A stretch of 64,000 bases of DNA. Origin: Anadara kagoshimensis. Taxonomy: Eukaryota > Mollusca > Bivalvia > Arcoida > Arcidae. This document shows, in pieces, positions 9,258 to 45,550 of this stretch (position 1 is the first letter of the stretch; every line of letters starts with the position of its first letter). A program made the translations under genes and the position numbers. Location of the stretch: NCBI GenBank assembly GCA_021292105.1, contig CM037870.1:43790576-43854575 (forward strand), given 5' to 3'. The notes beneath the pieces were generated by a model. The model was not told the origin of the DNA. It made no database searches and saw nothing but the letters and a program-made list of their open reading frames with translations.

Positions 9258-10660
9258 TTTTTGCATTCGATACTCTTAACATAGTTTAACCAAGGGAAAT
9301 TACAGTTATTATGAACAGATTGATTGTAAATTAAATTATAAATATTCTTTGTTAGTTTACTGTTATGTGCCCATACAATTTTAGCCCAATAAGTGATAAC
9401 TCTAGTTTTAACATCAATAGAGAGTGGTGTTCCACTCACCACGCTCACCATATACCATATTATTCGATGTATATTTGTTAACACATAACACATGTTTACA
9501 AAATTTTAGATGCAGTTGTTCAATAATGTCTAACTTGCTAAAACCCCATAACTCACAACCATATAATAGTGTAGGTTTAACAATTTTATCAAAAAGATCT
9601 AATTGACAATCAATAGATAGATTATGTATTCTAATTTTTTTAAGTACACCAAACATAGCTTTTTGTGCTCTTTGAACAAGATCTGTCTTTGCTTTATTAA
9701 AAGTACCATAACGTGATAAAACTAGACCAAGATAAGAGAATTCGTTAACTACATCTAGTTTGATACCTCTAAAAAATAAATTGAGTTTATTTGAAATTCT
9801 ACCTTTAGAAAATACAAGTAGTTTTGTTTTACTGATGTTAACATTTAGTTTCCAGTTGTAACAGTATTGTGAGAAAGTATCTATCGTGAATTGTAGATCT
9901 TCTTGCGATTCTGCTAGCAAAACAGTAGCATCTGCATATAACAAACAAAGTAATTTAACATAGTTTAGAGCACTTTTTTCAAACTCTTGTGAAACAGTAC
10001 TTAAACCTTTAACTTCTTTTTCTGACAAAAATAATTCTAAATCATTTACATATAGGGAAAATAAGAGTGGAGAAAGGCTGTCTCCTTGACGGACACCGAT
10101 ATTACATTAAAAAATTGAGAACTACAATTATTTAAGTCTATTCTTGACTTGATCCCTTGATAAAGATTGTGTATCACTCTTAAACATTTTCCATCAATAT
10201 TATTTCTAATTAATTTAGACCATAATGCTGGGCGCCACACATTGTCAAAAGCCTTTTCAAAATCTATAAAAACACAAAATAATTTTTTCCTGACAGGCGT
10301 AATATTTCAAAAAGATGGTGTAATACAAAGATATTATCAATAGTACAATAGCCCTTTCTAAAACCTGATTGGTTTTCATTCAACAAATGTATATTTTCTG
10401 AGAAAACAGATAACCTTGTATTGATAATACTTGTAAACAGTTTACAAAGACAGCTTAATAAGGTGATTGGTCGATAATTTTTGGGGTTACCCTGTTCACC
10501 TTTGTTTTTATATATAGGTATAATAATACCTTTTAACCAGTCAGACGGAACAATACCTGTATCAAAAATAGCATTAAAAAGTTTAACATACACTGGTAAA
10601 AATAAATCTACAGTATTTATAATATATTCATTAATAACTAAATCATCACCCGGGGATTAA
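9258..10660 (-). mobile_element. Degenerate LINE reverse transcriptase
   Basis: Minus-strand pieces in several frames cover consecutive reverse-transcriptase blocks: PSDWLKGIIIPIYKNKG, NYRPITLLSCLCKLF, QSGFRKGYCTIDN, the motif A stretch IDFEKAFD, then RQGDSLSPLLFSLYVNDL, then LLYADATVLLAES. The family motif C is YADD; here it is YADA, so a catalytic aspartate is lost. Frame breaks near 10,250 and 10,100-10,030 and at about 9,420 confirm that the copy is dead. The downstream part (GKPL-like segment, ITYWAKIVWAHNS) is the usual post-RT region. Assignment to the jockey/CR1/L2 group is tentative. Confidence 0.88.
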
Positions 10661-19000: not shown

Positions 19001-22000
19001 TTCTGGATAATCCGACCTATTTCAATGCCGACTACACACCCTGTGCCAGGGTTTGGTTCGTAGTCGAGAGGACATCCATTTCCACCTTTTTCTCGTGTCT
19101 TTTTTAGTTGGAAACGGTACAAAATTTTCAAGAAATGATTTTTTTTCTTAGGTCTTTCCTTCCATCGTAATTGCATCCCGGTACCGCACACCAATACTTG
19201 CCCTCTGCATTTTGACAACCAACCGAATTTACGACTAAGCGTCCTTGACAACAAAAACCGGAAGTAGGTATGCCTAAAATTTTCCCCGGAAGTGTATTAT
19301 AAAATACAAAACCGGACAGGATATTAGGTAACCCAGAAACGTCCTATTTAGTGAATGGAAACCAATACTTTTGAATGTAATACTCGTAATATATTTTATA
19401 GTGATAGCCCTTCTGCACTTGAAAAAATATACCCGATCCTTTAAATGTAGACATAAGGATTAAAAAAATAAGCCGAATTTTATAGTTATCTATATGTTTA
19501 CGAAACGTTAACACAAAAAATTCTTATAAATATACGGTGTCTATATTCATGTAGTATAACAAGTCTATCGGTGCCATTTCTAATATTTAGCAGAACAAAT
19601 ATTGTAAATCAGTAAGACGTTTTGTGTAAATTTAGTATTACGTGTTTCATCCTATGCTATGTGTTTAATTTCCATCTGTATGGTCAGGGATACATCTCTC
19701 TTCATTTATTTGTAGTGAAATGGCAAACCTAGTTGTAACTCTTATGGAAGTTGAAGGTGCTGCATGTGCTAATTTAAACCCAGAAGATGCAGTCTGCCAT
19801 ATGGTTTGTAATGCGAATTTTTGGATGTCCGCGATGACAGTTCAAGGTAGGGCAATTACAGTTATAAAAGATAGCAAAATATTTCAAACGACACTAGAAC
19901 GATTACTGAAATTTAAAGAAAATCTTTCGAAAAAAAGATTTAGTAAACCCACGTTTTACATTTATCGTGATAAAGAACAAGAGTTATTTCGCATGTATGA
20001 AAAAATCATCCCAGGATCAGAAAAAATGGAGGCATTGTGGAAGAGCTGCAAGTTCAAATACGACGAAAATCTTAAAATCTTGAATGATACAGTCATGTAT
20101 GTTCAGGAAATACAGGGACTTAAGGTTTTTGCGGGTGATAGCTTTTATGAAACGTGTTCCATTGTAAAACGTTACATAGAAAACACGAAAGATGAACTTT
20201 TAAATGGTGAAAAAGAATTAGCCGAGGTATTGGAATTTGATGTCTTCCGGAAATCACATGACCAAACTTTCCATCAGAAATGTGCCTGGTTATGCCCATT
20301 TGTAAGATCCCATGTTTTTACAAATATCAATAGAGATATTCTGACAAGTTTCCTTTCAGTGCGTTCAAAGGGCACTGAACATAGCAACGACACGTCGGAG
20401 AGTTTCCATGTTAAACTCTTAGATACGTTTATTGGGTTCCTATTCACAGAAGGACAACAACGATATAAAAAGGTGTGGGAACCTTTTGTTGAAGGCAATG
20501 ATGTAAGATAAAGGAAATATCCAGATGCTTTCGTTCAGCTGTTGGAAGACATGAAATTAAATTAGCAGAAACTCAATTTAATAGAACGTTAAAAGAAGAA
20601 ATGAAAACTGCTCTAATGAATTTACTGAATTACAAGGAGTATAAATCTAAGATCTGTGTGATTAAATCTGGATTAGACTCGTTTGAAATAGATCAAGACC
20701 ATCAATCGGAATTTATGAAGTATTTTGATGCGTTCCTCAAGATGTCTGATCTCACACTCTTTGGAATAAGCTCGGCATTGAAATACTTATATTCAATTGC
20801 AGATGATGTTGATGATGGTATGCTGTCGACACTCTCTGTACTACGGAAAACTGAAAAAAGCATCGAGCTTATTCAATTTTTGCGAAGAGAAATTGACGTG
20901 GACATGAGCAATTTGGTAGATTCTGTTGAAGATTATTCGGAGCAAAATGTTAGTTTATCTACAGTGTCATCGCTAATTGAAGTACAAAGCTTTCTCAAAC
21001 CATTGCTGCAGTGTGGAGATCTCGACGATATCCCGAAATTCATATCTGCATTTAAAGATATCCATCAATCAAACAGAATGCAACGCATAGATTCAAAATT
21101 TCTTGATTGCTTGGAAAATGTATTTGGAATTAAATTCCTATATGCCAACATGGCAAACAGAGAAGAAAAAACACGAGAAATAATAAACAATATCATAGAG
21201 CAAGGTATTTTTAATTTCTCTCTAAAAGACGGAATTTGCACTGTCGAGGTTACATATTCCTTGTCGAAAACAAAAGTTACCCATTCTGCTTCAAAACTGG
21301 GTGATTTGAAAAGCCAAGCACTGTTAATCATGAATACAGAGAAGAAAGATGGAATAATGCAATTGAGTCAGCGGGTGAAATCATGCTGTTTCGAATATTT
21401 TATAAGAGTCGTAGATCAGGCATTTTGTATTTATGAACTTTGCACTGACTTGCACCTTTCCGGCCATGACCAGTATCAATGCTTTCAAGAAACAGCTACT
21501 TGCAAGAATCTTTATAACATTTTGAAAAGACTCCATGATGATTACAAGGAATGGGAAAAAATGCTCAAGGAAACCAGGCAGTTATATCCCTACATGAATT
21601 ACGTCTATGGTCTCCAGATTCACAAATTGTACGAATTTTTTGTTTTACTGACCACTGACATTTACGTCTTACCTATTCTTCAATTCATTTGCCCTGCTGT
21701 CAGTACTAAGGAAATGCAAACAATTATCAAAGCCGAATCTTTACAAAAACGATCGACGATACCAATTAAATCCACAGCTCTTCGTGTCATTGCTGAAAAG
21801 ATAAAACAGGTTTGTGAACTTGTCCAGCCAGTCGTTATTCAATTTCCAATTGAAAGAAAAAACTTCAAAATGAAAGATTATGTACAAAAAGGAAGGATTT
21901 ATGTTGCTCGGCTTCAATCTGGAAGTGATCTTGTAACAAGAGTTATGCTGTCGTTGTACTTGAATACTACCTCTATTATACCAAGTGCAAACCAAGTCTT

Positions 22001-25000
22001 GTTTTGTGACAAAAATACACAATGGGATGAATTGTTTCTGTTTCTTCGACGTTGTGAGAATGAAAATCAAAATAGAAATAGTCTGTTTTGTATTGCTTAT
22101 GTTGAGTTTCTACCAACAGAGATAAGAACGCAACTTGCTTTTGAATTGCAGAACATGGAAAAAAATCCAAACATTCTTCTCGCGGTTATCATAAGATGTG
22201 ATTCAGACAATCCATTTCTTAACCGTTTTACAGAATATGCTATGAACCCCGAATCCTTATCGGAACCACAAATAAGAAGTTGTCTCCAATCTGTGTGTGA
22301 ATTTGTCGAAGTATTCACATCTGATAGCGCTGGTCTTGGTAAAACAGAAGCTATAAAGGAAGAAGCCTATCGCAACAGAAAACGAATGGTATCTTTCCAT
22401 ATTAGCGGACCATTTAGCAAGAAGAATGTTGTACAGAGACTTTTATCTTTAAATGTGAAGAAAACTGATTTTCTTCATATTGATGTAGGACCAACATTAG
22501 ATGCAGTCGAGTTAGATTTATTTTTGTTTCAATTGCTGTTTGTCAAAATAGTTTCAGCTGGAACGACATTGTGCAGTCTACAAACGGAATATGTTTGTAT
22601 TGAATTGGCAAATACACTTGATGGATCTTTAGAAAAAGATATGCCCCATGTAGCCCTTTTCAAAAGGAGGAATCTTCGTTGGATGGGATTCTCTAAATAT
22701 AAGATATCATCCGATATAGCTAGCAATGTCCAAGTTGTTTGTCAGTATCTGCAGCATTTTGAAAAAAACGAACTTGATCAAGCTGACATATATTTCAGTG
22801 GACCGAATAAATGTGAAATCTTGCAACCAAAAACATGCCAAAATTTGCTTGCAAATTATATTGGAACTGCCTCTGATCTAACGTTTCCTCAAATAAACAT
22901 ATTTATATCAGTATTGGCTCAACAGCTAAAACGTCTATCAATGAGCACGTTTTTTCGCACAAAACATTTAGCTAGCGGGATTTTGCCTCGGAACACAAAC
23001 ATCAGAGTCAAAAGCACTTTGGTTACAGCACTGATTGAAATATCTAAATCTTTTGCATTAAAATCAATACAAGCAGCACGAAAATCTCAAGCTATGGCAA
23101 TACGAAGTCTCGCAGAAGAAACGTTGGGAAATGAACTGGCAGAAATGGATCCCATCGATGATGTTCAAGGAATAATAAAATGGGATGACAGCAACCATTT
23201 GATCCTTCTGTTTCAAAATAAGGATAAAGAAACTATTTCGGCGTTGTACAAAGACTTGAAATCTGTTCCTGATTACATAACTAAGTTGCTCGAAATCCAA
23301 GGACAAAAAACACTCAAAGATCTAAATGATATGCATCCAACTGAACAACAGAACCTTGTGTTTAATATAGCACGTTCAGGACAAAATCCCATAGATCCAA
23401 ATGTTAGAGAAGCATTAGCAAATTCGTATGTTCTCACGACAGACAATATTCTGAAAATGGTACTTACGTGGTTACGAATTCAAGCAAAGATTCCAGTTAT
23501 TGTAATGGGGGAAACAGGATGTGGCAAAACATCTCTGCTAACGTATTTGTCAAAAATTTGTGGGAGTAGGCTGGAGATTTTCAATGTTCATGCAGGAATA
23601 GATGATAAGAAAATAATCGGTTTTGTTCAAGGGATCAACTCGGAAGCTCTGGAGAGCATTAAAAATCCTATTTGGATTTTTTTCGATGAAATTAATACTA
23701 CAGATAGTATTGGTCTTTTATCGGATATCCTTTGTCACCGCAAAGTAAATGGACGGGAATTAGCACCAAATCTTATATTATTGGCAGCATGCAACCCATA
23801 CAAACTCAGGAACCGATATTCAATGAAGACACCCGGATTACAGGGCAAGTTGAAGTCCGATAAACTGTCACATTTAGTTTATCGTGTCCATCCCATACCG
23901 GAAGCACTTATTCAATATGTTTGGGATTTTGGAAGCTTGTCTGTCAAAGATGAAGGTCAATATATCAGAAAGATAGTACAACTCAATAACAAGATTTTAC
24001 CAGATAAATCACAACAAGAACTTTTCGTGGCATTGATATCAGAATCACAATGTTTTGTACGTAATGAGGAGAAAGCATCATATAGTGTCAGCCTACGAGA
24101 TGTCAATCGATGTCAACGTCTTTATCAGTGGTTTATGTGTACATATTTTGAGCTGAAAGGTAGCAGTTGCGAATCCAATGCACATTCAATCCAAGCAATG
24201 ATTCTATCTCTTGCCCATTGCTACTATTGTCGTTTCCAATTCACGGATGTAAGACAGAAATATTTGAAAATAATATCTGATATAATTGTTCAAAATGGAC
24301 CAGACTTTTCAGACTTTTCAAAAGATTTTATAGAAGATATAATTATAAAAGAACAATGCGAAATTCTGGACAAAATGGAATTACCAGAGGGAACAGCAAA
24401 AAACACTGCTTTACAAGAAAATGTGTTTATGATTTTAGTCTCTGCTTGAACAAATTACCACTGTTTATCGTTGGCAAACCAGGATGCAGTAAATCGCTTT
24501 CCATCCAGCTCATCAAAAGCAATTTGAGAGGAAAGGATTCAAAAAGCAAATTCTTTGCCAAGCTTCCAAGGGTCATGTGTGTTGCTTTTCAGGGTTCCGA
24601 GTCCAGTACATCAGATGGGATTATGAAGGTATTTGAAAGAGCAAAAGGGATACAATCAAGCGAAAATATTTTACCCCTCGTAATACTTGATGAAATAGGA
24701 CTAGCTGAGGTGTCGCAGTTTAATCCGCTCAAGGTTTTACATAGCCTATTGGAACCAGTTGATAGAGATACGCTTGACGTTGCTGTTGTTGGTATTTCTA
24801 ATTGGGCATTAGATGCAGCAAAAATGAACAGAGCCATACATCTATGTAGACCGGATATGGATTATGCTGATGTTTACAAAACTGGTCTCTCAATAGTTGA
24901 GTCATTTACAACTCATGTTATCGATGCCGACATCGATGAATCTGATACAGTTAGACAAATTCTCTCAGACCATAAGAAAAGGTGTCTTGAGGCAATTGCA

Positions 25001-28000
25001 GAGGCTTATACCGAATATATTCAAAGACAATCTTTTCAAAACTTCCATGGTCTTCGTGATTTTTATTCGCTGATTAAATATTTCAGTAGAAATTGGTTTT
25101 GTAAAAACGACATACCAAATACCGTTGTTTCGGATATAATCAACTCAGGGCTTTGTCGTAACTTTGGCGGCAAGAAATCAGAGTTAGAATTAGCCAAACA
25201 AATATTCCAAGCCAAGATGAAAGACTGCGTAGACCTAAGTGGAAAACAGAATAAACCTGTTTATGAATTGATTAAGAGCAATGTTTTAGACACAAACAGT
25301 AGGCATTTGATGTTATTATCCAATGGCGATGCATTAATGAGTATCCTTACGCAACTTCTTGATGATATTGGACGCGAATATGTGACCATTGTCGGGAGCA
25401 AATTTGAAGATGACCAAAACGATGACTATAATTATCGAAACCTTAGTCAGATAATTTTGTGCATGGAGCAGGGAAAGGTTTTGGTATTGAAAGATCTTGA
25501 CAGTATTTACGGAAGTTTGTATGACATGCTCAATCAAAATTACACTGAATTTGCAAAGAAAAGATATTGCCGTGTTGCATTAGGGGAATACAGTAACCCT
25601 ATGTGCTATGTCAAAGATGAATTTAAATGTATCGTTCTCGTAGAAGAAAGCGATCTTCACAAGTCTGATCCTCCATTCCTCAATCGATTTGAAAAGCAAC
25701 AGTTTTCATATGCTGACCTCTTACCGAAGGAGCTAACAAAACCGGAAAAAAATCTAGAATCGATTTGTTTGCAAATGTGCCGCAAGGAAGAAATTTACGG
25801 AAGTGCCCTTATGAAAAACTACATCCCTATTGCAGGGGATGATATGTTGACATCGCTGTTATTACAACAGGCACATGAATGCCCGAATCTCTCAATGGAA
25901 GACTTGGAAACATCCTGCTTCATGAAGCTTCTACATCTCTGTACCCCTGAATCATTACTGAGGTTCAATGAATCAGAACATTTGGAAGGTGATACCATGA
26001 GAAAAGAAATTGTCTCAAAGTTTCTTGCACTACCTGTACATAATGGTTTATCTTATTATTTGGAACACTTCAATAGCCAAATATCTTCCAGGCAACCGTT
26101 CGAAACACGGCAAAGGCAAGAAGACCCGGAACCTTTTGAAGTAAACACTGACACTGACAATTTGGAGAAAAAAGAAACGATGTCTGGAAGTCATTCTACT
26201 GAGTTTTCATTGACCGAATCTCTTCATAAGCACAATAATGAAATTGAAACTTTGAATCAGGATCTAAGATACCATATACCAGGACTAAGAATTTCTTCTG
26301 AACAAATGAATGAGAAGCTTGTTGTTTTCACCCACAGTAATATTCACTGCAATATACAATTAGATAGAGCAGAAGTCGTTCGAATTTCACGTTTCAAGTC
26401 CAAAAAATCCATAGAAACAGAAATAGACAACTTCATAAAACTAGAGAAGGATTATATGGTGATGCAGTTTGATATAAGGTTGGATTTCAAACATCTTCTG
26501 CTTGTGAAGACTATAATCGATACACATTTGAATCAGGTTCACGTGAAAGATTGTACATCGCTTGGGAAAAAATTCATTATTGTTCTTCATTTGTCAAGAA
26601 GTAAATTAGAAGAGGTAGAGCTAGGACAGAAATTGAATTTTTTATCAGGATGGAATTTTGTATACTTGGACATTCTGGAAACACCGAAAACAAGCCTGAA
26701 ACAGTTAGTAGGGAAGAATATCCATGAAATAATTTTAGCTTCTAAAGACGAGTTACCAGATAAAATCAAGAAACAACTCTTCTGGGCTTTTACAAGAATG
26801 AATTATGCAATTTCAAAACTAAGGAAAGTTCAAGATCTTAATAATATGGTCGAAAAAATACAAAATGTACCTGAATTACTGGAATTATTCGCACATCGTG
26901 TTTGTACTTGGACTTCTGAAGAGGATATGGCACTAAGTGTAGTGCCCAAAATCGCATCGGATTCACATGCGCTTTATCTCTCATCATCCCTTATCGGAGC
27001 AGTAAGCTCAAGCGTAGAAGACTGTATAGGCAATCAGCTGGCAAAAATGGTTTTTGTTCTTGAAGAACTTGGCGCATTTGACTGCATAATTAGTACAAAT
27101 ACCAATGGGAAGAAATGGGAAATGTGGACCAAATTATTTTGAACGAACAGATATTCAACATTGAAAATGTTCCAGACCCCGAAGGACCTTGCTGCTACAT
27201 TGTTCAAAGAACAGTAAATGGTTTCAAAACTCCATTTATTACATACTTCTTTCAACAAATTGAATCGCTTAGGCTGGATTTTTTATCAACTGCTAAGACT
27301 TTTATGGATGGACTGGGTATAGATATGGTTGGCGAGCTAACAGCGCTTGAATTGAACGATCTGATGAATAGTTTCAAAGGCAATATATTGCCCAAAATCA
27401 ACGAACTTACCTGCTTTAACATTGAGTCCCAAAGAATGGATTATATAGAGGACTTTTTTATGAATGTTTCGGGTCTGTACTCGTGTCGTTTGGAGAAAAT
27501 GAAAAAAGTGGAAGTAATCCAATGGATTATATCCAAATACTGCAGGATTCCAGAACAATTCGACGAGACCGTGGTCGTCCTTCATACTACTTTCTGGATA
27601 TTCCACATGCACATTTTGGCAATTCTTCGTTTAATTGATGTAGCTGTCAATACGTTCTCTGTGAGTTTACCCTTACTTCTTTCTGAGACGAATACTAAAG
27701 ATACCAAAGACGAGGCGACAACTAATGACACTGAAGAAAGCCTTGCTTCAGGTTTTTCGACCCTCATCGATTATATATTCCGATTGAATATCCCCTCAAC
27801 TTTTGTTCTGAAAGTAGTAAGTCTACCTATCTGGCAGAGAAAGTCAATGGATTATTCTGTCTATCAGCATTACTCGGCGTAGATGATCCCGTGGAACATA
27901 TCCTTCGATTCTGTCACGATCTCACTGTAATGTTTCTCCTTCCTTATTCGTTAGATCGAAGTGTTTTGCAACCCATTGGAGATACATTATCAGTAGAGCA

Positions 28001-31000
28001 TTCACGATTAGAATCATCAGCAACATTCGAAACGTTGATGGACACCATAAGGAAAATTCGGGAAAAACACCATCATGTCCCTATGGAAGCTTTACAAAGG
28101 ACAGTATGCATGTATGTAAATAGATGTTTTGCTGCAGATCCTGATCAAGCAACTGCACTAACAATATTGATGCTTCAAGCAAATTTGACAAATAAAGATT
28201 TCGATGAGAAGTTAACAGGTGTAGGTCCTACACTTGGTCTTGCTTTAAGAGAGCTTCATTTTCTTGATGATTCGGTATTTTCGATGGTAATTTCAAGCAC
28301 TGATGAATATTGCAAAAATACTATTTTTGAAAAATTCGAATTGTTGCAAATCCTCGACCTCTGCCTTAGAGATGCCAGAATGGGCAAAACGTTATCGGGA
28401 ATTGTATGTTATCTATTGCAACGTGACATTTACAGCAAACTAATTGAAAACGGAGATCAAAATACACATGCTTTTATCGCAAAAGACGAGGCTATTGAGT
28501 TGTTGGTTAACGCTTCAGACGTCATGTATGAGAACAATGGAATTAGTTTAAGAAAGGTTGCTGCAATATCGTTTTGCCGTTCATACATATCAAAGTTTGT
28601 TACTAGCAAAGATCACTTAGACAAAAACAGAAATAAAAATGTTTATGAAGCTGTCAACTCAATGTTTCATAAGCAAAAATCAAGTCACTCAAATGGAATC
28701 GTAAAGTATTTTTACGTTGCATGGACGATGGATATGGGATATTTCGTTTACGGTATACGTGCAAAAATTTGTCAGATGTCATGGACATCTGCAAAGAAGT
28801 TTGTAGCACCGATAAAAAATCTGATATAGATATTTACCCTTTGGTCCCTCACGTATCAGCAGTTTTTAAGCAATTTAAAAACGATCTGCAGTCGTTAGAT
28901 GAAGAGGAGTATGGGGAATTCATTTCAAGATACAAGAGTAAAAGAGACGTATGTCTGTGCAGCTTAACTTTGCTACATTGCAACTATTTACGAAAAGTAA
29001 ATCCAAACATTGAAAATGATGTCAATAGAACTACGGTAGAGAAAGCGCTTAGGATAGCTACAATCACACTGACTGACTTGAACTGTGAAAGTGTTATTCC
29101 TTTCGTCCAATGTTTAGCAGGCAATTCCGATTTGAGAATATCTGCATTAGAATTAAGTTTCATGGCCGATAATTTTCACATAATATCGGTCATATCTCAA
29201 TTTATTTGCTTGGTTACTAGTCATTGTTCAGACAAGAACATTTGGAAACAACTTATATGTAGTCCAGATACTGCTGTTGAAAGATACATCCCATTTGAAA
29301 AAAAGATTTTACACATTGAATCATACAACACCGCAGTCACATGCAACAACTGCAGTCACAGAATACTGTCAGAATTTAACGAATGTCCTGTATGTGAAAC
29401 AGAAATGGGAATAATACAAAAGAAGGAAGAGAAAAGATGGAGGAAGAGGACCAGAGAACTACAGAATTTGTTCAATATTTGTTGACTTTTTTATATGTAG
29501 CTGCCTGCTAACTGCATTAGGGGTTTGCAAAGAAGACACCGACCACGATAGGACGACCCAATCAATCAGAAAGTCAATGAACATTCCGGAAGACCATCCT
29601 GTAGACCTGTTTCTTGAAAATCGAATCGAAGATCATTGGAACCGCTTGAAACTGTTCTTTGCAACAGAAAATTCTGGACTCTGTCACCTGTTTCAGGTCA
29701 TATTTTTAGAGACAAAACACTTATTTAAAAACGATTGTCGAATGTTGCATAAGGATGAATGGGAAAATTTTAAAATTCAATTTAAATCAGAAATAACTAG
29801 AATCGTTATCAATCAAACGGAATGTATGCAAAATATTTGGTCAAAACTGAGCGACGCTCTTTCCATCGTTCCGGAAGATTGTTTAGAGATTCAGCTGAAG
29901 TATCCAGCTACCTTAATGAAGGGGGATATCAACAAATCACATGATCAACAGTTGTTCTTAAGGTTTTTAACTCCATCTCCAGAAAATCTCTTCGCTTCAG
30001 TATGCGTTACATCAACTGACAGAAATCTGCCATTACTTCAGTTAGTGTTGGAGAACAAGGAATGGTTAAGTTTGCCACGATTTTTACCATCGATTATCTC
30101 TTGGCACTTATCTTTTCTTAAATGTGCACGGTTTCGACTGAAGAAATGCGATCTGGAAACAATGACTGTTTCAGAGTTTATTCAGAAGATAAGTGGAGAG
30201 AAAAATCGACTACTTAACCAAAAGTTTGCCGATCTAAAGGAAACGATAAATAGTCTAAAACATTTTACCTCTAATCTTGAAGATATAAATGGGTCTTTTA
30301 GACGTTTGAATGAATTAGGAGACGATCTTTTATTGAAAGATTGTGTCATTCTTAGAGATCGCTCGTTGATGTATGCAATAGCTGAAACACTTGCAATGAT
30401 CCAAAATAGATTTTTAGATAAAGTGTTAGAAATTTCCTGTATGTCCTCTAAGAATGGACATAATGGCTGTCTTGATACAAGTTTTGTATTAAAACGACCA
30501 AATGCTGCAGCCATTCAAACAATAGATCTGATGAATATAGCGAGAAGGGATGTCATCACTTTCGAATTTCAAAGAATACTAATGTATAGCCAATGTGGAA
30601 CGAGCATGTCGGACTATAACACCATATATTATGATTGCAATACCACTCAGTTAGAAGTTGCGTATATGCTACATGGTAAAGCTTATATACTTATTCCAAA
30701 AACCATCCAATCGGTTGATTTTGCTGATGATTTGTATAGGAATTCCGCCCTTATGCTAGAATCAATAAAAGATCTGTGTGACCAACGGCCTCTACCAGAA
30801 ATTACAGAACGGTATTTAAAAAGGTTTGCGATGACAATCCATCAATATGCCCAAATTTAATCACAATAATAGGCATTCTTTTGGCTGCCATGACACAAAG
30901 TTCCGAAACAAAATCAGAAATGCCATTGTCCGATTTCATAGAGGAATGGAAAAGCGGCTTTCCAGAAGGTTCTGAATATGAGGTTCTATTGTCGGCTGAA

Positions 31001-33786
31001 TGCAAATTACACTTGTGTAATCTTGTGCCACTATACAAATTTTTAGAAGAAATAAATGGTGGAATGTTGATAAACAGCATATCACAATATTATAAGGTCG
31101 CAATTGAAGGAGATGATAGAACATATATTACTAGTCAGTCAAAATGTAATTTCCACATGATTAGACATCTTTTTAGGGCAATGAAGATATTACTTCATCG
31201 CTGTTCGTTTCTCAGAAAGTCTTCTTCAGAATCAAAGCGTCCAGGTAGACAGCAACGAATTTGTGACTTGTTGGATGATAAATCGTTCTGGTGTGATGGT
31301 TGTGAACATTGCAAGTCCGATGACAACTACATACAAAACAGCATTAAATGCATTCCAGCGAGGTTAGCCGTGAAACAATTTTACAGCACAATAGTCTTTG
31401 TGAAGGAAAAAGTACAGGTAAGAACAAATAATTATGTTATTTATCTATTTATTTAGATATCATTTGGTTTCACTATTATTTCTTATTTTTGACATGTGAT
31501 TCGTAACTAAATACACATATATCAGCAGCTACAACATTTTGACTTTGTTATTCTAAACACATGCGTATAATATTATGTTAATTGTGTTTGATTTGAAAAA
31601 AGATAAAAAGAATTCAGAACATTATGCATAGCCTTTTGTTTAAAGTATTTCGTGTTTTACATTTCAAATAAAGCAAACATTAAGAACTAGATACAATTAT
31701 CCATTTTTTAACAAAGACGTTCTTATCGTGAACAAATCATGAATAGCGTGTTCTTTTCGTAAAGGATTCGTTCTTTTCTGCTATTGGTGTGACAGAATGG
31801 CGTTCGTTCACAAACAGAAAGAAGGATAATTTGAATCTGAAAAACATCTAACAGCAGCAAGAAACACAAAAAATAGAGAAACACTATAAGTAAATCAAAA
31901 GTCAAACAAAACAAGACAAGAAAAGTAAAATGCAAATTGGGGCCACTTATTATAAATTTTTAGACTTTGAACGGGCACTGGATCGAATGCTAGCTGATTT
32001 TCTAATAGCACTACTAAAAGGCTCAAACAATTCCACTTTTTACAACGACTTAGTTTAGTTTAAACAATATTTATTCATCATTAGATACAAATAATATAAT
32101 TCATAACAAACTTTAAACTGGATTCAGGAACAAGCGCTAGCTTATTTCAACCCGTCTCCAGGTCTTACAACGACTTGTTATCATATATAACCTAAACCTT
32201 GTACACCTTATAACTAACTAGCAGCCCTTTATGCAGATGCCTTCTAAATAAAATCAGTCATTGTTTGAATAAGTCTGACTGATAGACAGAAAGGAAAGTA
32301 ATCATGACTTGCTATGTTCTGTAGAACTTTTATTAAGATCCGTCATTGAATAAAAACAATGCCGTTTCTGAAAATATATTTAAAGATTATTTATAAAATG
32401 TCAAAAAATTAACGACACGTTGACTAATATCTGAGTAGTAATTTGAGGCTATATATGGCTACTATGTAGCAGACGTTGTATTAACGTTTGTTACTACTGC
32501 TTCTATCGACATGTTATGCGTTCTTTTTCTGCGCATTCAATATACTATATAGAGTTGACTCATATATTTCAGATAAGTCGAAATGTCCAAGCTGAAAAAC
32601 CGACATACACACCTAATACATTAAGAAGAGGTCCATCAAGCCGGAGAAAAAGACATATTAACATGGTTAATATGGGTATGTGCAATGAGTTTTTTTTAAA
32701 TATTCATTAAAGAAGTTATTCAATATTTCAATATTCTTCTTCTATTACAAGTTCTTTGACAAACGTGATGACATCAATGTTCAACTTTCTTTTTCTTTTT
32801 CGGCAATATACTTGCCCACTCCTTCTTATGGTGCATTTGTTTCACAGTTAATGCGCTACAGTAGAGATTGGTTCCAAAAAAGGAAACTTTATATAGCGAC
32901 GCTTGCCGCTTTGAAATAAATTGTTATATATTAAAAACTTATTAAAGTGACCCTTTAAATATTATTGGCCGCCATCACAAAACTAAATATGCTGCCTCTG
33001 TATCAAATATTATTTGAAGTCCCATAGGTCCATGTTCCTTTTATTCACATGACATTTTTGATTTTACAAGTGGCAGGTTTAGCTAGCTTAACACGAGGTG
33101 CTTACCTTTCAGGCATTTCAAGATAAATTTGCCAGTTTTCAAAGTTTTTACTTTGCTTTTTGCATAGTGATTTAGTCATGGATCAGCATGTGTCAGTTTA
33201 ATTTCACTCAATAATCCACTTTAGCGATAGAGTCGTGTTCACAGAGATTGACACTCCAATATACCTGTATACAAGTAAAGTATCAAATTGTTTAAATATA
33301 CTATTGCCTTAATTTGCTGCTAGTTACAATCTAAAAATTTTCAAAAACTAAGGAATGCAACGAATTTAGTTTGCTAATTTGGTTAAATATATTTTGGTCC
33401 TTTAGATATTTTTTCGACCCCTGGAACATTGTTGGTTTCACAATTTTGGTTCTATCAGTACTGATGAGAAATTGTATTCCGCAACGGGCGTCTAGTGCTG
33501 TAAATTTAAACTGGTATAATATCAATTAAAATGAAATAACATGTTACAGTTACCTTTGCTGGAATTCGAGCCCGCAATCAGATAGAACCAAATGACTAAG
33601 CATAGCCACAATGAATGACTAACCAATTAGTCTAGGAATACATCGGCTAAATCACCATCAAATTTCACATGAAAGCAATATTAAATCTCTGAACGCCATC
33701 ATATTATTTCGCCACAGTTTCAAGTTTGATAAATATTGTTTTTTTTAATTTCAGGAGATGGACAAGACTTGCTGGAAGTTAGATAA
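11757..33786 (+). CDS. RNF213-like giant AAA+ ATPase / E3 ligase (9 coding exons, frame-broken)
   Basis: RNF213 proteins are dynein-like AAA+ machines with a ubiquitin-ligase C-terminal half, acting in the cytosol and on lipid droplets. Here nine exons (11757-11827 with ATG at 11782, 13089-13494, 13901-13983, 14339-14716, 15033-15114, 15934-17699, 19716-31417, 32573-32675, 33755-33786) join with matching phases into about 4,865 codons, close to the human length of about 5,200. Three P-loops are visible: SDSAGLGKT (about 22,325), GETGCGKT (about 23,510) with WIFFDEIN (about 23,675), and GKPGCSKS (about 24,475) with VILDEIGLAE (about 24,685). The last two match the catalytically competent modules known as AAA3 and AAA4. 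Eight frame breaks occur (near 14,510, 20,500, 24,440, 27,135, 27,815, 28,750, 29,475 and 30,845) without other nonsense codons, which suggests consensus indels or a recent pseudogene. No RING is seen. A 5' non-coding exon is implied upstream. Confidence 0.9.
12540..12740 (-). repeat. Possible SINE-like fragment
   Basis: The minus strand contains GGTTGCGGGTTTGAACTTC, a B-box-like motif, downstream of GTCCGTCTCGGGAGTGGGA. It lies in the intron between exons 1 and 2. The (TTTA)n-rich stretch 12,860-13,060 follows it. Confidence 0.3.
13089..13494 (+). CDS. RNF213-like exon 2
   Basis: Acceptor ATTTCAG|GG and donor CAGG|GTATGT, phase 1 in and phase 2 out, open throughout. It encodes a roughly 135-residue charged segment (RLKFGIEFCSSETEGKKRS to NQPPVPLAG) of unknown function. 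The N-terminal region of this family is poorly conserved, so no domain is named. Confidence 0.75.
13901..13983 (+). CDS. RNF213-like exon 3 (small, polar)
   Basis: Acceptor TTTTTCAG, donor CTGG|GTAAGT, phase 2 in and phase 1 out. It encodes a low-complexity linker beginning PSSEPATAKNEDKKMKQ. Supported by the open frame and perfect phase continuity with exons 2 and 4. Confidence 0.7.
14339..14716 (+). CDS. RNF213-like exon 4, with one frame break
   Basis: Acceptor TTTTTTCAG|TG, donor ACAAG|GTAATT, phase 1 in and phase 2 out. The frame opens with VISLHAAYSLQVLEN and continues in a frame shifted by one step after about 14,510 (NTVIVRFATYNRAEV ... EIEQWRNVFATR). The two halves read as one compact domain of unknown type, and the outgoing phase fits exon 5 only in the second frame. 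Confidence 0.72.
15033..15114 (+). CDS. RNF213-like exon 5 (proline/lysine linker)
   Basis: Acceptor TTTTTCAG|AA, donor GTT|GTAAGT, phase 2 in and phase 0 out. It encodes a K/P/S-rich linker (TKKPLPSQKPPLKSK...). Low complexity and no domain. Supported by splice sites and phase. Confidence 0.7.
15460..15610 (+). repeat. Bivalve-type interspersed repeat, copy 1
   Basis: Shares the blocks GTAGCTAGTTAAACA, CTTACCCTCCCGGAGCAC, GGTGAAGGTTTACATA and TTTGGATTGTGATTTGG with copies near 33.1, 39.9, 40.4, 41.9, 43.95 and (minus) 58.2 kb. It is non-coding and lies in the intron between exons 5 and 6. Confidence 0.75.
15934..17699 (+). CDS. RNF213-like exon 6
   Basis: Acceptor TTTCAG|TAC, donor AAAAG|GTAATG, phase 0 in and phase 2 out; 1,766 bp open without a break. 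An early segment (LWTLRVALPA...FRYKYS) recalls the carbohydrate-binding-type beta-sandwich (CBM20) of RNF213, where a similar YKY strand occurs; this is tentative. The rest (LSTDRKEKIIQELIKSG onward) is helical and resembles the N-terminal stalk of the family. Confidence 0.82.
18639..19347. mobile_element. Long-TIR MITE-like element in an RNF213-like intron
   Basis: Left arm about 18,639-18,730 and right arm about 19,255-19,347 are imperfect inverted repeats of about 90 bp. Shared blocks include CGTTTCTGGG at the outer edge, ATTTTAGGC in the middle and ACTTCCGGTTT at the inner edge. No clear target duplication is seen. A 124-codon minus-strand ORF inside (18,880-19,254) has no family I recognise and is probably not a gene. 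Confidence 0.65.
19716..31417 (+). CDS. RNF213-like exon 7 (11.7 kb: AAA+ core, E3 shell, C-terminal domain)
   Basis: Acceptor TTTGTAG|TG, donor TACAG|GTAAGA, phase 2 in and phase 0 out. In order: helical linker (19.7-22.2 kb), AAA2-type SDSAGLGKT (about 22,325), an AAA module with GETGCGKT and WIFFDEINT (23.5-23.8 kb), an AAA module with GKPGCSKS and VILDEIGLAE (24.47-24.75 kb), further AAA-like and helical sequence to 27.1 kb, E3-shell-like helices (27.8-29.4 kb), a C-x2-C-x10-C-x2-C cluster (29,342-29,395), and the C-terminal domain (29.5-31.4 kb). Seven frame breaks divide it; each neighbouring frame overlaps or abuts the next and continues the homologous order, so it is one exon. The usual RING position (about 27.8-28.1 kb) has no Cys/His cluster. 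Confidence 0.9.
29342..29395 (+). other. Zinc-ribbon-like cysteine cluster in the RNF213-like protein
   Basis: CNNCSH...ECPVC gives C-x2-C-x10-C-x2-C. It lies between the E3-shell-like helices and the C-terminal domain, about where RNF213 carries its RZ finger (in human, C-x3-H-x15-C-x2-C). The spacing differs, so it may be a divergent or degenerate counterpart. Confidence 0.5.
31418..32572 (+). other. Intron between RNF213-like exons 7 and 8
   Basis: GTAAGA donor and TTTCAG acceptor. AT-rich; no gene or clear repeat boundary seen inside. Confidence 0.6.
32573..32675 (+). CDS. RNF213-like exon 8
   Basis: Acceptor ATATTTCAG|ATA, donor ATGG|GTATGT, phase 0 in and phase 1 out. It encodes a basic tail (ISRNVQAEKPTYTPNTLRR...). 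Phase agrees with exons 7 and 9. Confidence 0.75.
33055..33200 (+). repeat. Bivalve-type interspersed repeat, copy 2
   Basis: Contains GGTTTAGCTAGCTTAACA, GTGCTTACCTTTCAGGCA and TTTGCCAGTTTTCAAAG. Sits in the intron between exons 8 and 9. A second repeat (about 33,300-33,520, ending ACGGGCGTCTAGTGCTGTAA) follows and matches about 41,150-41,370. Confidence 0.7.
33545..33640 (-). repeat. Possible SINE-like fragment (B-box-like)
   Basis: The minus strand reads GCGGGCTCGAATTCC, resembling a pol III B box, but no clear A box was found. Weak. Confidence 0.25.
33755..33786 (+). CDS. RNF213-like exon 9, stop codon
   Basis: Acceptor TTTAATTTCAG|GA. It completes GDGQDLLEVR and reaches TAA at 33784-33786. 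Short, but the phase fits and the acceptor is strong. Confidence 0.65.
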
Positions 33787-36700
33787 AAACCTTTATGATG
33801 CTTTATTCAAAACTATCAACATTGTTGTGTAAATAAGATACACTGACGTTGACACATATTCAGATCTATTGACCCTAATATTTGTGTGCAAGCGAGAACT
33901 TAATATTTGTGTGCAAGCGAGAACTTTTAAGTGTCACAACAAAACATACTAACGGCAAAATCAAACAGCGATGACAACACGAGGTTACGGGTGATAAAGA
34001 TGCAATCTGTTCTCTAAACAGATATGTTGTAACCTTGTGAATGAAAAAAGGCACAAAACAAAAAGGATTTATATTCGTTAGCAATCGTAGACAGATACAA
34101 TACAAAAACGGAGTTTTATTCGTTAGTAATCGTGAACAGATACTTTCCCTTTACAACTTGCTTTCAATAACATGCCAGAATTGTTTACTGTACATATTTT
34201 TTTCAATTTTTATGCCAATTCGCGTATATTTACAGGGAGTTAGATTTATCACGGTATACATGGTTATGCATTACAAAGGATGAAGCTTACATTGCACATT
34301 GCTAAACAACATATATTATTCTGTTTCTTTTTTATTGATACAATTTGTGTATCATATCCATGCAATGTATTGCAATGACTGCAATTAATCTGTACACAAT
34401 CAGTTAACATTATTCTGTAAATAAGAGTTTCATGTGACTGCAATTATGGATGAAGTCATCATTTTGAAATGCTTACATTTTAGAATTTCATAAGTTTGTA
34501 AATATTTTAGTTTTAGCAAAATATTTGCTGTCAAAAGAAATCATCCATTTTCTATTTTTGAGAGTGTTATAATTTCACTTCCATTGTAAATATTCAAATA
34601 AAATGTAGATGTTACTTAGCCATATGGATTTTATGTTACCTAGAACATTTTCTACAAAATTATATTTTTGCTTATTCTGATTCAAATTTGAATCCTTACA
34701 TTTTTTATCACTTTCAATTTAATCAAATTTTAAGTCAAAAGTTTTTTTTCTGCAAAACGTTTTGCTTCATTACATTGCCTCTCCGGTGTAATTTTTAATT
34801 TGACTGTGTGAAAGTGTGTTGACTTAGTTGAAATCTTGTACATTATTAGTTTTATGACTTTTATTAGTTAGAAATCAGGAACATAGATTTTTTGTACATT
34901 GTCATTGCAAAAACATACAAGAAGGATTTGCTGTACATACTTGTAGTTTTTGTTCCATTTTCAATGAAAATTAGATGTACTTGTAACAAATTGGATTTCC
35001 TACTGTAAATAATGATACCATTTGTTTATAATACCCATGTTATGTACTACAGAGACTGCAAATAATCTTTAATTATTAATCATTGAACATTGTACTGTAA
35101 AAAAGAGTTACTTGTGGATTGAGTCATCTTCAGTATCATTTTGAAATGCTTACATTTTAGAATTTTATGAGTTTTGAAAATATTTTAGTTTTTGCAAATC
35201 TGTCGCTGTCACAAGAAATCATCAGGTTTTTTTCTATTTTCGAAAGCTTTATATTTGCACCTACAGTTGTTTAGATTGTGATAGATGTTACTTAGTAATA
35301 TGGATTTTATATTAGCTGGAACATTTTGTTTTAGTTTATTTTTTGCATATTCTGTTTCCAATTTGAATCAGTACATTTTTCTCACTTCCAATTTAATATA
35401 AAATTTTAATTAAATAAGATTTTTGTCCTCATTTCATTGACTATCCAGTCCTTTTTTATTTGACTATGTTAAAGTGTATTGACTTGAAATGTTGTACATT
35501 ATCAGTTATCCTTAAGGTATCATTGTGTAGATTTATTGTAAATAATAAGATCATGTTCTCTGGCAAACATTTAGTATAAACCATATACTTACTGATTTTA
35601 TGACTTATGTATACATGTAGATGAAAAGTTTTTGGTATAATGAATTAACAATGTACATCACAAAACGGAGTTTTATTCGTTAGCAATCGTGAACATAGAC
35701 TTTTCTGTACATCGTTATTTCAAAAACATGACAGAAGTGTTTACTGTAAATAAAAGATATTTTTCAATATTCGCTGAAAATTCTTGTACTTATGCATAAA
35801 GTTTGGTGTGTAGCTGTATATAATGTTTAGCAATTCAAGGTAGAAAGTTTGCATTGTACATTACAACAGAATCTAAATCATTTTAAGAGTATACAATTTG
35901 TTTATCATATCCATGTAATGTATTGTAAGGACTACAAATATACTGTACACAATCAGTGAACATTGTTCTGTAAATAGGAGTTTTATGTTACTGCAATTAT
36001 GCATTAAGTCACTTTGGTATCATTTTTAAATGCTAACATTTTAGAATTTCATGAGTTTTGAAAATATTTCAGTTTTAGCAAAAATTTTGCTGACAAAAGA
36101 AATCATCCGTTTTCTATTTTTGAAAGTGATATGGATTTTATGTTAGCTAGAACATATTGTTGCAAGATTATCTTTTTGAACATTCTGATTCAAATTTGAA
36201 TCATCACTTTCAGTTTAATATCACATTTTAATCATTCCTCATTCCATTGACTATCCAGTCCTTTTTTATTTGAATATGTTAAAGTATGTTGACTTGAAAT
36301 GTTGTACATTATTAGTTATCCTAAAGGTATCATTGTGTAGATTTATTGTAAATAATGAGATCATGTTCTGTAGCAAACATTTAGTGTGAGCCATATACAT
36401 TCTGATTTTATGACTTGTATATACATGTAGATGAAATTTTTATGGTATAGAAATGAAAAATGTACAATACATTCATTTCGTTAGCAATCGTGTACATAAA
36501 TTTTCTCTGAAACATTGTTATTTAAATAACACGTCAGAATGGTTTACTGTACATAAAAAATTTGTGGATTTACTCCGTATTTCAATGAATATTATGTGCA
36601 CTTGCATGAACTTGGATTTGTCAATGTATATTATCTTTCATCATTTCAATGTTGCATTGTACATTACTATACATTCTATTTTATGATGTTTTGTTTTTGA

Positions 36701-37860
36701 TTTATACAATTTGTTTATTATATCCATGTAATGTATTGCAGTGACTGTAATTAATATGTACACAATCAGTAAACATTGTACTGTAAATAAGGGTTTTATG
36801 CTAGCTACTTAAATTTTGACTTTATAATAGATCTTCATGATTTTTCATATATATTTTTTAATTTTTCACCACAAAAATGAAAAATGCATTTTTCTTGCAT
36901 CGGTTTGAATTCTAAAAACGTGATCGTGAGTTTCAGTTTCAGTGCATATTTGAAGAGTGATGATTCTGTAATTATTATGTTCATTATTTGGTTACATAGT
37001 GCAAAAGACTCTTAGATAAGATAAATTGACAATTTCACTTTTTGTTATATTTTGAAAGCACCGAAATTGGTATATGCAAAAATTATAATAGAAGTAAAAT
37101 CAACCTAGTAGTGGTGGAGAAATTATAAAAAAAACAGAAGGCCATATTTTTAAAACGTTATATTTATTTATTTTATTTGCTATTTTCTGCTTATGTTTGA
37201 CTTTGTTCAAAGAGCCCTTATCGCTAACGAAACATTATAGGAGATGTGTTGTAAATATTGCTTATTACCATTCCGGATACTGATTTGTTGGATGAAACGA
37301 GCTTGTCTTCTTCAAACAATAAATTTATTTGTTTCATTGTACTATAAGAAACATAACTGTTTTTCTATGGTGTTTTTAAGTTTTGTTATATCAGGGTATC
37401 GTGTATGTCGCCTGTCTAAATATACGTTTTGACTTTTTTTATATTATCTGCCCTTTTCTGTCATAAACATGTATATTGTTCAAAGTTCAAGGTTACATTG
37501 GTTGTTGCTTACACTGCTAGTGTACTTCCTGTGCGCTGTCGTGAGGACATCCTATTGTCTCAAGTTTTAGTTATTTGTTTCAACACCTTCATTTTTCTCC
37601 CTTACGATGTCGATGGTTATTTTAGAAATGAAATCCATGCATAAAGTATGTATTGCTTTGCCTGAATAGAATGCAAGTACTATAATTTCCATCATAAAAA
37701 TCAAAACAGAATTTACTATACAAAAGAGATGTTTTTACAATATTGGAATTAAACGTAAATACTAGTAGCCATTTTTACTGTAAATAATGTTTGGGCATGA
37801 TGTTAAAATGTAGATCACTGAGTTTATTTTATTGCTGTAATGATATGTTTGAATAGTTTC
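33787..37860 (+). repeat. Imperfect 0.7-0.9 kb tandem units downstream of the RNF213-like stop
   Basis: The block ATTTGTTTATCATATCCATG...TGTACACAATCAGT...CATTGTTCTGTAAATA recurs at about 34,340, 35,020, 35,893 and 36,697. Another block (TTCGTTAGCAATCGTG...CAGAA.TGTTTACTGTA) recurs at about 34,070, 35,680 and 36,478. It is non-coding and AT-rich. It begins directly after the stop codon, so part or all may be 3' UTR; no transcript end can be fixed by eye. Confidence 0.75.
33828..37786 (+). promoter_or_regulatory. Cluster of Pumilio-type TGTANATA motifs (sense strand)
   Basis: By eye, about 18 matches to TGTA[A/C/T]ATA start at 33828, 34189, 34416, 34497, 34585, 34932, 35004, 35537, 35745, 35815, 35969, 36347, 36416, 36491, 36548, 36782, 37250 and 37779. 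Only about two occur on the other strand (34227 and 36735). This is the known PUF-protein recognition site in RNA. Several sit at equivalent places in the tandem units. Function depends on the region being transcribed. Confidence 0.5.
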
Positions 37861-37861
37861 T

Positions 37862-37864
<3 letters not shown>

Positions 37865-37900
<36 letters not shown>
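37865..37900. repeat. (GT)n microsatellite
   Basis: Uninterrupted GT dinucleotides, about 18 units. Confidence 0.95.
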
Positions 37901-37901
<1 letters not shown>

Positions 37902-38940
37902 TGACACGTTTTTATGCCATACACTGGAAATATTATGTTATATTTGTAGAGGTTATTCCTTTATATGGCACAACTCATTTGATTTTTTCAATTACATGAG
38001 TATACACTAAAAAGATTGTAAGTGAGTGTAATATTATTCTTCATGGATGATTTGAATATCAAAAACTATAAATTCTCGCTTTATGATTATTTTTAGTTTA
38101 CATAAGTATAATCTTTTGATTTATGTTTAATTGTTTTGTTCCATATAAAACAAAAAACAAGACAATGTATTTTGTATATCCTTATAACTTAAAATAAATA
38201 TTGTTTTAAAGTATGTTTCCAATAGGGATTTTTGAGAATTAATTAAACATGTGTAAGAATACATTAGACATGTAAAGGTGTGTTTGTGTTTGGTTCAATT
38301 ACCGTTGTTATTTATAAAGACTTAAGGTATTGATAAAAAATAAACACACTAATCCATGTTTGGTTGTGATATTTCAAAATAACAAATACAATGCATTACT
38401 ATTTGATCTTTTCGTAATTATTTCACTTTTGATTTATTTATAAAATAGTATTTGTTATTTTGAAACAATAAAAACAAAGGTATTTTTGCAGCATTGCATG
38501 TATTCTAAATGTTATTGAATGTTAAGTACATGTTCATATATTTTGTAAAACTGTAATAATTATAATATATAATAATACTAGTCGAAAGTCGTTTTCTGGA
38601 AAAGGACACAGAAGTCTTTTTTATAGATTATCTTTTTTGTATGAGAATGGAAAATTATATTTTAATCTACTAAGTTTTATTGGGGTAATTTCCATTATCA
38701 GGTTTTTTCAAAGCCGTAAAGAAAATGAGACAAACACAAATATTGTTATTAATACTTATAATTCCTCTTAGACACCAGGCAAACGTCGATTGACACCGAT
38801 CTAAATGAATAAGTATGACCCATCGGTTGTCAGTTTTCAGCCAACAACTTTTAATCGCCAGGTTTTTAGGTACTGAAAAATACTCGAACATTGTTTTCTG
38901 AACAAGCATAAGTACAATAAGCCTTTCATGAACAATATTT
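37901..38940. other. Intergenic, AT-rich
   Basis: No gene or clear repeat seen. Confidence 0.5.
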
Positions 38941-38959
38941 CGAGTTACCACATTTCGAC

Positions 38960-39190
38960 TTCAGCGGGGGTAAAGGGGGTTCGCCGCCGTACCACGTGAT
39001 CAATACCTCTTAACGTTTGTGCGGAACATTTTGGAAAACGTCAACGTCACAAATTCCCGGAATAACGTTGTTTTTACGGGAAAACGTCATATTGTGCGAT
39101 TCCATGTCCATCGGAAACAAGCGTTTCGCAGACACGTTAGAGGGTATCACGTGGTACAGCGGCGAACCCCATTAAGCTGAAATCTGAAGT
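38960..39190. repeat. Foldback element (inverted repeat)
   Basis: The arms GGGTTCGCCGCCGTACCACG (from 38,977) and its near-complement ending 39,170 pair with one mismatch. Pairing extends inward past the CACGTGAT block and outward to TTCAGC / GCTGAA. The loop is about 150 bp. It is GC-rich compared with its surroundings. Confidence 0.8.
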
Positions 39191-39879
39191 CACTGATTTT
39201 ATACTAAATAAAAAGCTTCGCAGCTTCGATTCATCCAATTTCGAGATAACGAGTTTCGACTACAGTTTATTGTAACTAATTGATTATGTTAGTTTAAGCA
39301 TATAAGCATAGGATGTAAGAAAGTCAAAATGTGTTTGAAAGAAAAACATTTTAGTATCATAATGTGTATATTGATGATTAAAGTGGTGATTATTTTTAGC
39401 TGGGTTAGAACTACAAGATTCAAATAATTTTCATTAGTAACCCAATGTCAAATGTAACTTCTATATTAGATCTAAAAAGAAATTGTTTGAATGTTGTACT
39501 TTGCACCCAATTTGTGTGCGTTATCTTCAGCATTTAGTCAAATACATACATGTCTATCCGGAGAGGTTATAATTCTAAACACAAACAATATGCATTTTCT
39601 GAATTTGTTTATGTATAATTGAAAAGCAAAAAAAAAGTCCATGAGTAAATTTACCATGATCGCGTTAATATCAGTACTAAATTAACTTAACGTCTGTTTT
39701 TGTCCATGGAATTTAATAATTTTTCTTTTTTCAAATCTTGAATTTTATTGTTCAAATTTCTTACGTACAAATGTTCTTATTTTATACCCACTTAACTTTA
39801 TTTATACAAATAGATTAAAATACTTTCAATATATTTCAGTACAGAGAACTGTTAAAGGACAAATTTATCTTCATTTTAC

Positions 39880-40030
39880 TTAATTTCTCATGTTATAGAG
39901 TCCATCACTTGCCTTCTGTAGTACCTGCCATCACTTCCCTACCAGACGTTACCGGGTTTAACATAATTTGCTAGTTTCAAACGTTTTCTTTGCTTTGAGT
40001 TGTGATATGGACATTAGATAGTATATGGTT
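39880..40030 (+). repeat. Bivalve-type interspersed repeat, copy 3 (diverged)
   Basis: Contains CACTTCCCTACCAGACGTTA, TTTGCTAGTTTCAAACG and TTGTGATATGGACAT. More diverged than its neighbour at 40.4 kb. Confidence 0.6.
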
Positions 40031-45044: not shown

Positions 45045-45550
45045 TATTCTTGTACAGAACCACTGGCAAGCAAGCTTTAACGTATGTTAGTGATCGTGAC
45101 CTTGAGATATTGTTGGTTGAGACTAGGGTTTATTCTTGTACAGAACCACTGGCAAGCAAGCTTTAACGTATGTTAGTGATCGTGACCTTGAGATATTGTT
45201 GGTTGAGAATAGGGTTTATTCTTGTCCAGAACCACTGGCAAGCAAGCTTTAACGTATGTTAGTGGTCGTGACCTTGGGATATAGTTGGTTGAGACTAGGG
45301 TTTATTCTTGTAAAGAACCACTGGCAAGCAAGCTTTAACGTACGTTAGTGATCGTGACGTTGAGATATTGTTGGTTGAGACTAGGGTTTATTCTTGCATA
45401 GAACCACTGGCAAGCAAGCTTTAACGTATGTTAGTGATCGTGACCTTGAGATATTGTTGGTTGAGACTAAGGTTTATTCTTGTCCAGAACCACTGGCAAG
45501 CATGCTTTAACGTATGTTAGTGATCGTGTTGGTTGAGACTAGGGTTTCTT
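45045..45550. repeat. 86-bp tandem array, six copies
   Basis: Units start at 45045, 45131, 45217, 45303, 45389 and 45475, exactly 86 bp apart, nearly identical (TATTCTTGTACAGAACCACT...). The last unit is shortened by an internal deletion. Confidence 0.95.

Follow-up and report, generated by a model that had tools for sequence, protein, structure and literature searches.

Sense-strand Pumilio-type words in a diverged tandem repeat downstream of an RNF213-like gene: a putative dense Pumilio-response array

Does the cluster of Pumilio-type words that follows an RNF213-like gene in the 64-kb stretch of DNA analysed here (the window) exceed chance, and if so, would it control the mRNA that carries it or titrate Pumilio? 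NORAD is the best-known Pumilio-titrating RNA. It is a mammalian cytoplasmic lncRNA that titrates PUM1/PUM2. No homologue was detected in opossum or in vertebrates of more basal lineages (PMC4947167); human NORAD contains 17 UGURUAUA versus 0.38 expected (PMC4947167), and 18 PREs and five repeated domains are also reported (PMC6677556).

In the array region (33787..37860), the word TGTA[ACT]ATA (TGTAHATA) occurs 18 times on the plus strand and 3 times on the minus strand. Word counting places the sense copies as follows:

33828, 34189, 34416, 34497, 34585, 34932, 35004, 35537, 35745, plus strand: first half of the 18 sense TGTAHATA words
35815, 35969, 36347, 36416, 36491, 36548, 36782, 37250, 37779, plus strand: second half of the 18 sense TGTAHATA words

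The first-pass annotation had given these numbers as about 18 and about two; the former holds, whereas the latter is 3. Across the whole window, the word was counted 30 times on the plus and 17 times on the minus strand. In 2000 dinucleotide-preserving shuffles of the array region, the control proposed together with the original observation, the plus-strand count averaged 0.98 with a maximum of 5, and 18 was reached in none (minus-strand mean, 1.16). Genome-wide, TGTANATA is found 371,547 times in the forward and 374,773 times in the reverse orientation in 1,115,223,567 bases, corresponding to ~1.35 expected copies per strand for the array region (Poisson P ~1e-14 for 18), and any 4-kb window within 20 arbitrarily chosen 10-kb stretches of this genome contains at most 5 TGTAHATA per strand. 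The accompanying warning that repeats inflate the count was justified, as the 18 sites collapse to 11 alignment-independent positions; all of these are in sense orientation, versus ~1.1-1.4 expected (Poisson P ~2e-7 at the genome rate). The excess of the Pumilio-type word in the array region is confirmed as real and beyond chance.

Among words with seven fixed letters and one free letter, TGTA.ATA ranks first in the array region (18 versus 1.19 by first-order Markov expectation, log10 P ~-15), and the second-ranked word of that shape, GTAA.TAA (log10 P -6.9), overlaps it. If any one fixed letter of TGTA.ATA is altered, the sense count does not exceed 10; the 10 copies are those of TGTA.ATT, itself a weaker Pumilio word, and the other single-letter variants reach at most 4. 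The free position is occupied by A in 12, by C in 4 and by T in 2 of the 18 sites, and by G in none. The sense bias noticed at the outset thus goes beyond shuffled controls and is specific to the 8-nt Pumilio word. The narrow definition used for NORAD (UGURUAUA) gives 2 sense sites versus 0.7 expected. In the same region, the FBF-type 9-nt word is not enriched (3 versus 6.5 expected) and the count of ATTTA is not elevated; TTTTAT, the cytoplasmic-polyadenylation word, is slightly up (22 versus 12.5, z 2.9).

It is highly improbable that the same letters are instead read by CFIm (UGUA), by a forkhead protein on DNA (GTAAAYA) or by another RNA-binding protein. Total TGTA is raised on both strands (66 versus 37 expected on plus, 48 versus 31 on minus), and TGTAAATA holds a forkhead-like core. 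However, TGTA without a following.ATA is balanced between the strands (48 on plus versus 45 on minus), so that the excess does not represent a general UGUA (CFIm) signal, and one-strand placement is needless for sites on DNA. Furthermore, the canonical forkhead word GTAAACA is present 1 versus 2 times, and TGTACATA and TGTATATA take part among the sense words (6 versus 2). The CFIm/UGUA, forkhead and FBF-type readings are therefore disfavoured by the word counts.

Fifteen of the 18 sites are located in a tandem repeat whose units were delimited by self-comparison and alignment:

34105..34855, plus strand: repeat unit 1 (approximate limits)
34856..35661, plus strand: repeat unit 2 (approximate limits)
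35662..36476, plus strand: repeat unit 3 (approximate limits)
36477..36880, plus strand: repeat unit 4, partial (approximate limits)

The units are 63-81% identical pairwise over aligned columns, and their sites fall on 8 alignment columns: four columns are occupied in a single unit, two in a pair of units, one in three units and one in all four. The remaining sites, at 33828, 37250 and 37779, flank the units. Four imperfect units of 0.7-0.9 kb, starting right after the stop codon, had been described. The first three do measure ~0.75-0.8 kb, but the fourth is partial (~0.4 kb), and the repeat begins at ~34105, that is ~320 bases past the predicted stop at 33784-33786. Among 35 ordered unit comparisons, which are mutually non-independent, 22 keep all seven fixed letters of the site word (for distinct pairs, 11 of 24), versus a baseline of 24% of 1632 ordered comparisons for words of matched G+C. 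The free letter differs in 8 of the 22 retained comparisons.

A consensus fold of the units, which with only four of them is a weak test, revealed no convincing conserved stem-loops of the NORAD type (energy -6.4 over 965 columns, covariation term positive at +1.19; of 49 predicted pairs, 5 have both partners altered in one sequence or more). The predicted accessibility of the sites is that of matched words (P 0.47), and Rfam gave no match up to E 1 across 30000-40000. A mobile-element origin of the sites was also considered and rejected: among the best 40 of 309 candidates, which were scored, the matches listed beyond the window and the array copy on C15 (see below) fall on ~36975-37239, the one interspersed family seen in the array region, which contains none of the 18 sites.

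Upstream of the array, the following features were found or predicted:

20502..31456, plus strand: RNF213-like coding run of seven open frames; the frame changes six times, at junctions without introns (frames, PDB matches)
32573..32675, plus strand: predicted penultimate exon (AG/GT sites, open frame; 0/103 substitutions versus C15)
33755..33786, plus strand: predicted last coding exon, stop at 33784-33786 (acceptor-like site, in-frame stop; 0/32 substitutions versus C15)
33787..38490, plus strand: proposed 3' UTR, end uncertain (skew, poly(A)-like signals)

The original assignment of the gene to the RNF213 type is borne out by PDB matches to RNF213 for 20502-24449 (E 4e-47) and 24281-27142 (E 2.8e-53), and by AAA_5, which passes the Pfam cut-off; an RNF213-type AAA core is present. 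The RING region gives a partial zf-C3HC4_2 match (17.1 bits versus a cut-off of 27), and neither three other pieces of the gene nor the 256 residues predicted at its C-terminal end matched a PDB sequence. The gene is under constraint: 3591 codons compared between C14 (the contig of the window) and C15 contain 25 synonymous and 29 nonsynonymous differences (pN/pS 0.30). The C15 copy is likewise split into several frames, but its indels are placed differently. Most of the frame changes are probably errors of the assembly, and the gene itself is probably a working one. A pseudogene is disfavoured by the pN/pS value, by the difference in frame-changing indels between the two copies and by a distant relative on C5 with an open frame of 2652 amino acids.

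The predicted penultimate exon has a translated match in C15 and, by eye, is similar to the final exon of the gene on C5. The exon 33755..33786 is short and weak by itself. In the C15 copy, both short exons are identical (0/135 bases changed). On the plus strand, T exceeds A (negative AT skew) at ~34.25-38.5 kb and the GC skew is mostly positive; as the intron stretch 32.5-33.5 kb likewise has a negative AT skew, skew alone is no proof of a UTR. AATAAA/ATTAAA are present at 38193, 38242, 38339 and 38467, with others further upstream; a long 3' UTR could look like this. Only the open frame, the splice-like sites and the skew between the strands suggest that the array region is transcribed. Its setting, directly downstream of a predicted last exon and stop and with a T-rich plus strand, points to a 3' UTR rather than to a stand-alone NORAD-like RNA. 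The unspliced frame 30782-31456 terminates at its end, so the RNF213-like gene might stop at ~31456 and the array might lie in a separate transcript or another gene end; we regard this as very unlikely, given the two further in-frame exons without a difference between the copies, the first of which has its likeness in the C5 relative.

Among the scored candidates, the array has one further full-length match, C15:19676604-19680627 (96%). Similarity between C14 and C15 spans at least window positions 13189-39533, interrupted by two ~200-base gaps, and the two are duplicates or two haplotypes; substitutions amount to 0-0.8% in coding segments, compared with ~1.5-2.7% for those introns and flanks that were measured. 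The C15 array carries 17 strict sense sites (16 shared and one gained, aligned to 36625) and 2 antisense ones, and two of the 18 window sites are lost there through 1-2-base indels. The strict words have no substitutions in 141 compared bases, versus 103 in 3868 for the remainder (binomial P 0.022; P 0.042 versus matched random words), and strict and weak TGTANAT words together have 1 in 269, versus 12 in 250 for other TGTA words (Fisher P 0.0012). If indels are counted as damage, 2 of the 18 strict sites are broken; their retention is then not above that of random words matched to them (P 0.29) and has no significant advantage over that of other TGTA words (P 0.10). The evidence for constraint on the array words is therefore moderate.

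A search of the genome for PUF repeats revealed one locus, on C7, with six exon-level matches. Its frames carry RFIQ, NYVIQ, CRVIQ, NHVVQ, CRVIQ, NYVIQ and NYVVQ (the seventh repeat lies outside the fetched sequence), and the best PDB match of the first four repeats is fly Pumilio (E 3.4e-91), followed by human PUM2 and PUM1. These motifs presumably read UGUANAUA, and the genome thus appears to encode a Pumilio with a canonical-looking repeat code.

Two protein searches of the genome (queries, the C-terminal 256 residues and 893 core residues; best candidates scored) gave RNF213-like loci only on C14, on C15 and on C5. The C5 gene shares 28% identity with the host gene C-terminally, rising to 52% in the core stretch that matches best, and is followed by its own array:

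~71,890,800-71,894,950 of C5, minus strand: satellite (48-bp unit repeat)

In 12 kb of C5, TGTAHATA occurs 61 times in sense and 3 times in antisense orientation, and all 61 sense sites lie inside or at the edges of this satellite, 58 of whose 84 recognised units have a strict site. The satellite starts ~1.3 kb past the likely stop, with no strict sites in these first 1.3 kb, and may lie outside the mRNA; its Pumilio letters are kept no better than its other letters, the sixth motif letter being A in just 77%. As the two arrays have no plus-strand blastn similarity at E 0.01, they probably arose separately. Note that tight TGTAHATA triples (10,376 forward and 9,945 reverse genome-wide) are not above a reversed-word control (9,938 and 11,340), and that other satellites, e.g. 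on C1, carry the word. The C5 array comprises 36 tight triples; as a crude estimate from triple counts, there would be about one array of its size per 2 Mb, and a sense array no more than several kb downstream of any one gene would have a chance of a few per thousand, an argument based on a single relative.

We propose, at about even confidence, that the stretch forms the 3' UTR of the RNF213-like mRNA and works there, chiefly in cis, as a dense Pumilio-response array. The proposal starts from the array, its word specificity and strand bias, the moderate signs of retention and the Pumilio gene; the region would be transcribed as 3' UTR, bound by Pumilio and repressive in cis. A segment already bearing sites would have been duplicated into four units, more sites would have arisen within and around them, and the words would have tended to stay while the remaining sequence drifted. 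Recruitment of the CCR4-NOT deadenylase is established for fly and mammalian Pumilio; here, Pumilio would bind several sites per transcript simultaneously and recruit this deadenylase, so that the mRNA would be repressed where Pumilio is high and released where it is low or saturated. The C5 relative with its own sense-strand array and the constraint on the host gene count in favour of this proposal. Against it count the two sites broken in C15, sites not extra accessible, the six frame changes of the host gene, the ~1.3 kb between the C5 stop and its array, whose motif letters are not better kept, and the fact that few Pumilio sites are enough for cis control.

That the array is instead a functionless by-product, in which an AT-rich segment with a few TGTAHATA by chance was tandemly duplicated and both count and bias were copied along, seems unlikely, yet it deserves serious weight. 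Seven of the 18 sites repeat a position that another site already represents, indels break two sites in C15, and, moreover, word-bearing satellites exist elsewhere (C1), tight triples are not above their control and the C5 satellite has no special motif retention. A by-product would, however, hardly account for 11 independent sense positions, three of them outside the units, for the word specificity and for the fewer substitutions within the words. Titration of Pumilio in trans, by the mRNA with its array or by a separate RNA, with de-repression of other mRNAs, is improbable in our estimation. The number of sites equals that of NORAD (17 UGURUAUA, PMC4947167; 18 PREs, PMC6677556), likewise in repeats, and there is a second array behind the distant C5 relative; but titration requires an abundant, stable, cytoplasmic RNA, the units have no convincing conserved stem-loops, and the UGURUAUA definition leaves only 2 sites. 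Still more doubtful, we think, is an extension to both old RNF213-like lineages: each would have gained a sense array separately (on C14/C15, diverged 0.8-kb units with 11 independent positions; on C5, a 48-bp satellite with ~60 sites), dense binding would have been selected, and the mRNAs, when induced, would also titrate Pumilio, linking an innate-immune response to the release of Pumilio targets. This extension treats RNF213-like mRNAs as immune-type ubiquitin-ligase mRNAs.

How does the array compare with known systems? The likeness to NORAD suggested at the outset holds for the layout, with many sense words in diverged tandem units (18 versus 0.98 in shuffles, i.e. ~1 expected; 15 of 18 in units), and fails for conserved stem-loops, which the window units do not convincingly have. 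Unlike NORAD, the array is probably part of a coding gene's 3' UTR, UGUAAAUA predominates, and NORAD's own UGURUAUA definition gives 2 sites. The parallel is thus one of layout, and the array should not be filed as NORAD, because such stem-loops were not found and a stand-alone RNA is hypothetical. Pumilio mRNAs are an example of Pumilio targets, with a conserved UGUACAUU in the 3' UTR (PMC7798263). Here too, sense UGUANAUN words stand in a proposed 3' UTR, but the window array has far more sites and is organised in tandem units. The sense UGUANAUA words would lie downstream of the stop codon, as both stop and UTR are predictions. Human PLCXD1 is likewise a coding gene with a PRE number equal to that of NORAD (18, mostly within transposable elements; PMC4947167), whereas the sole interspersed family seen here (~36975-37239) holds 0 of 18 sites.

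Pumilio control of the host mRNA may be unusually dense. A coding gene from elsewhere among animals whose tandem units equal NORAD in number of Pumilio words, together with an unrelated array behind the only distant relative found, would be a natural case, independent of NORAD, for testing whether such arrays evolve for strong cis control or for titration. In the searchable part of the open-access literature, as judged from the listed matches, no paper linking RNF213 and Pumilio was found, those that name both mentioning each word only once or twice, and among the listed open-access matches on NORAD repeats, on Pumilio sponges in invertebrates or molluscs and on bivalve RNF213, titles and abstract beginnings mention no such array. 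The term "NORAD-like" together with Pumilio is met, in the same portion of this literature, for Toxoplasma.

The RNF213-like gene and its array of Pumilio-type words have a second copy in the genome searched: window 13189-39533, which includes both, matches G000:C15:19656001-19682127, on a different contig, at 96-98% identity. The C15 copy may represent a recent duplication or a misplaced haplotype. The features of the window considered here are:

9414-10656, minus strand: RVT_1 (reverse-transcriptase) fragments that occupy two frames, with E-values of 5.3e-13 and 1.7e-8
15853-17703, plus strand: open frame of 616 residues
20502-31456, plus strand: RNF213-like coding run
36975-37239: interspersed stretch within the proposed 3' UTR
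38973-39173: element of ~200 bases
45045-45528: tandem repeat (86-bp unit, 5.6 copies, 94% matches)

The RNF213-like run changes frame six times, without introns, and its frame-changing indels are not the same as those of the C15 copy. The 616-residue open frame, which has no Pfam match, may belong to the RNF213-like gene as an exon further upstream; its divergence from the C15 copy is low (0.7%).

The ~200-base element is present in the window and missing from the C15 copy. With its inverted ends (28 nt, 93% complementary), it is a MITE-like insertion. The interspersed stretch has ~40 relatives dispersed through the genome among the matches listed (72-85% alike) and contains no strict Pumilio sites (TGTAHATA). 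The RVT_1 pieces are retroelement remains.

Pumilio words are also carried by satellites. Downstream of the distant RNF213-like gene on C5, 61 sense TGTAHATA words lie inside or adjoining a 48-bp satellite (C5 ~71,890,800-71,894,950). Another satellite, of 27-bp period, is found at G000:C1:29428-30407, with TGTAAATA on the plus strand.
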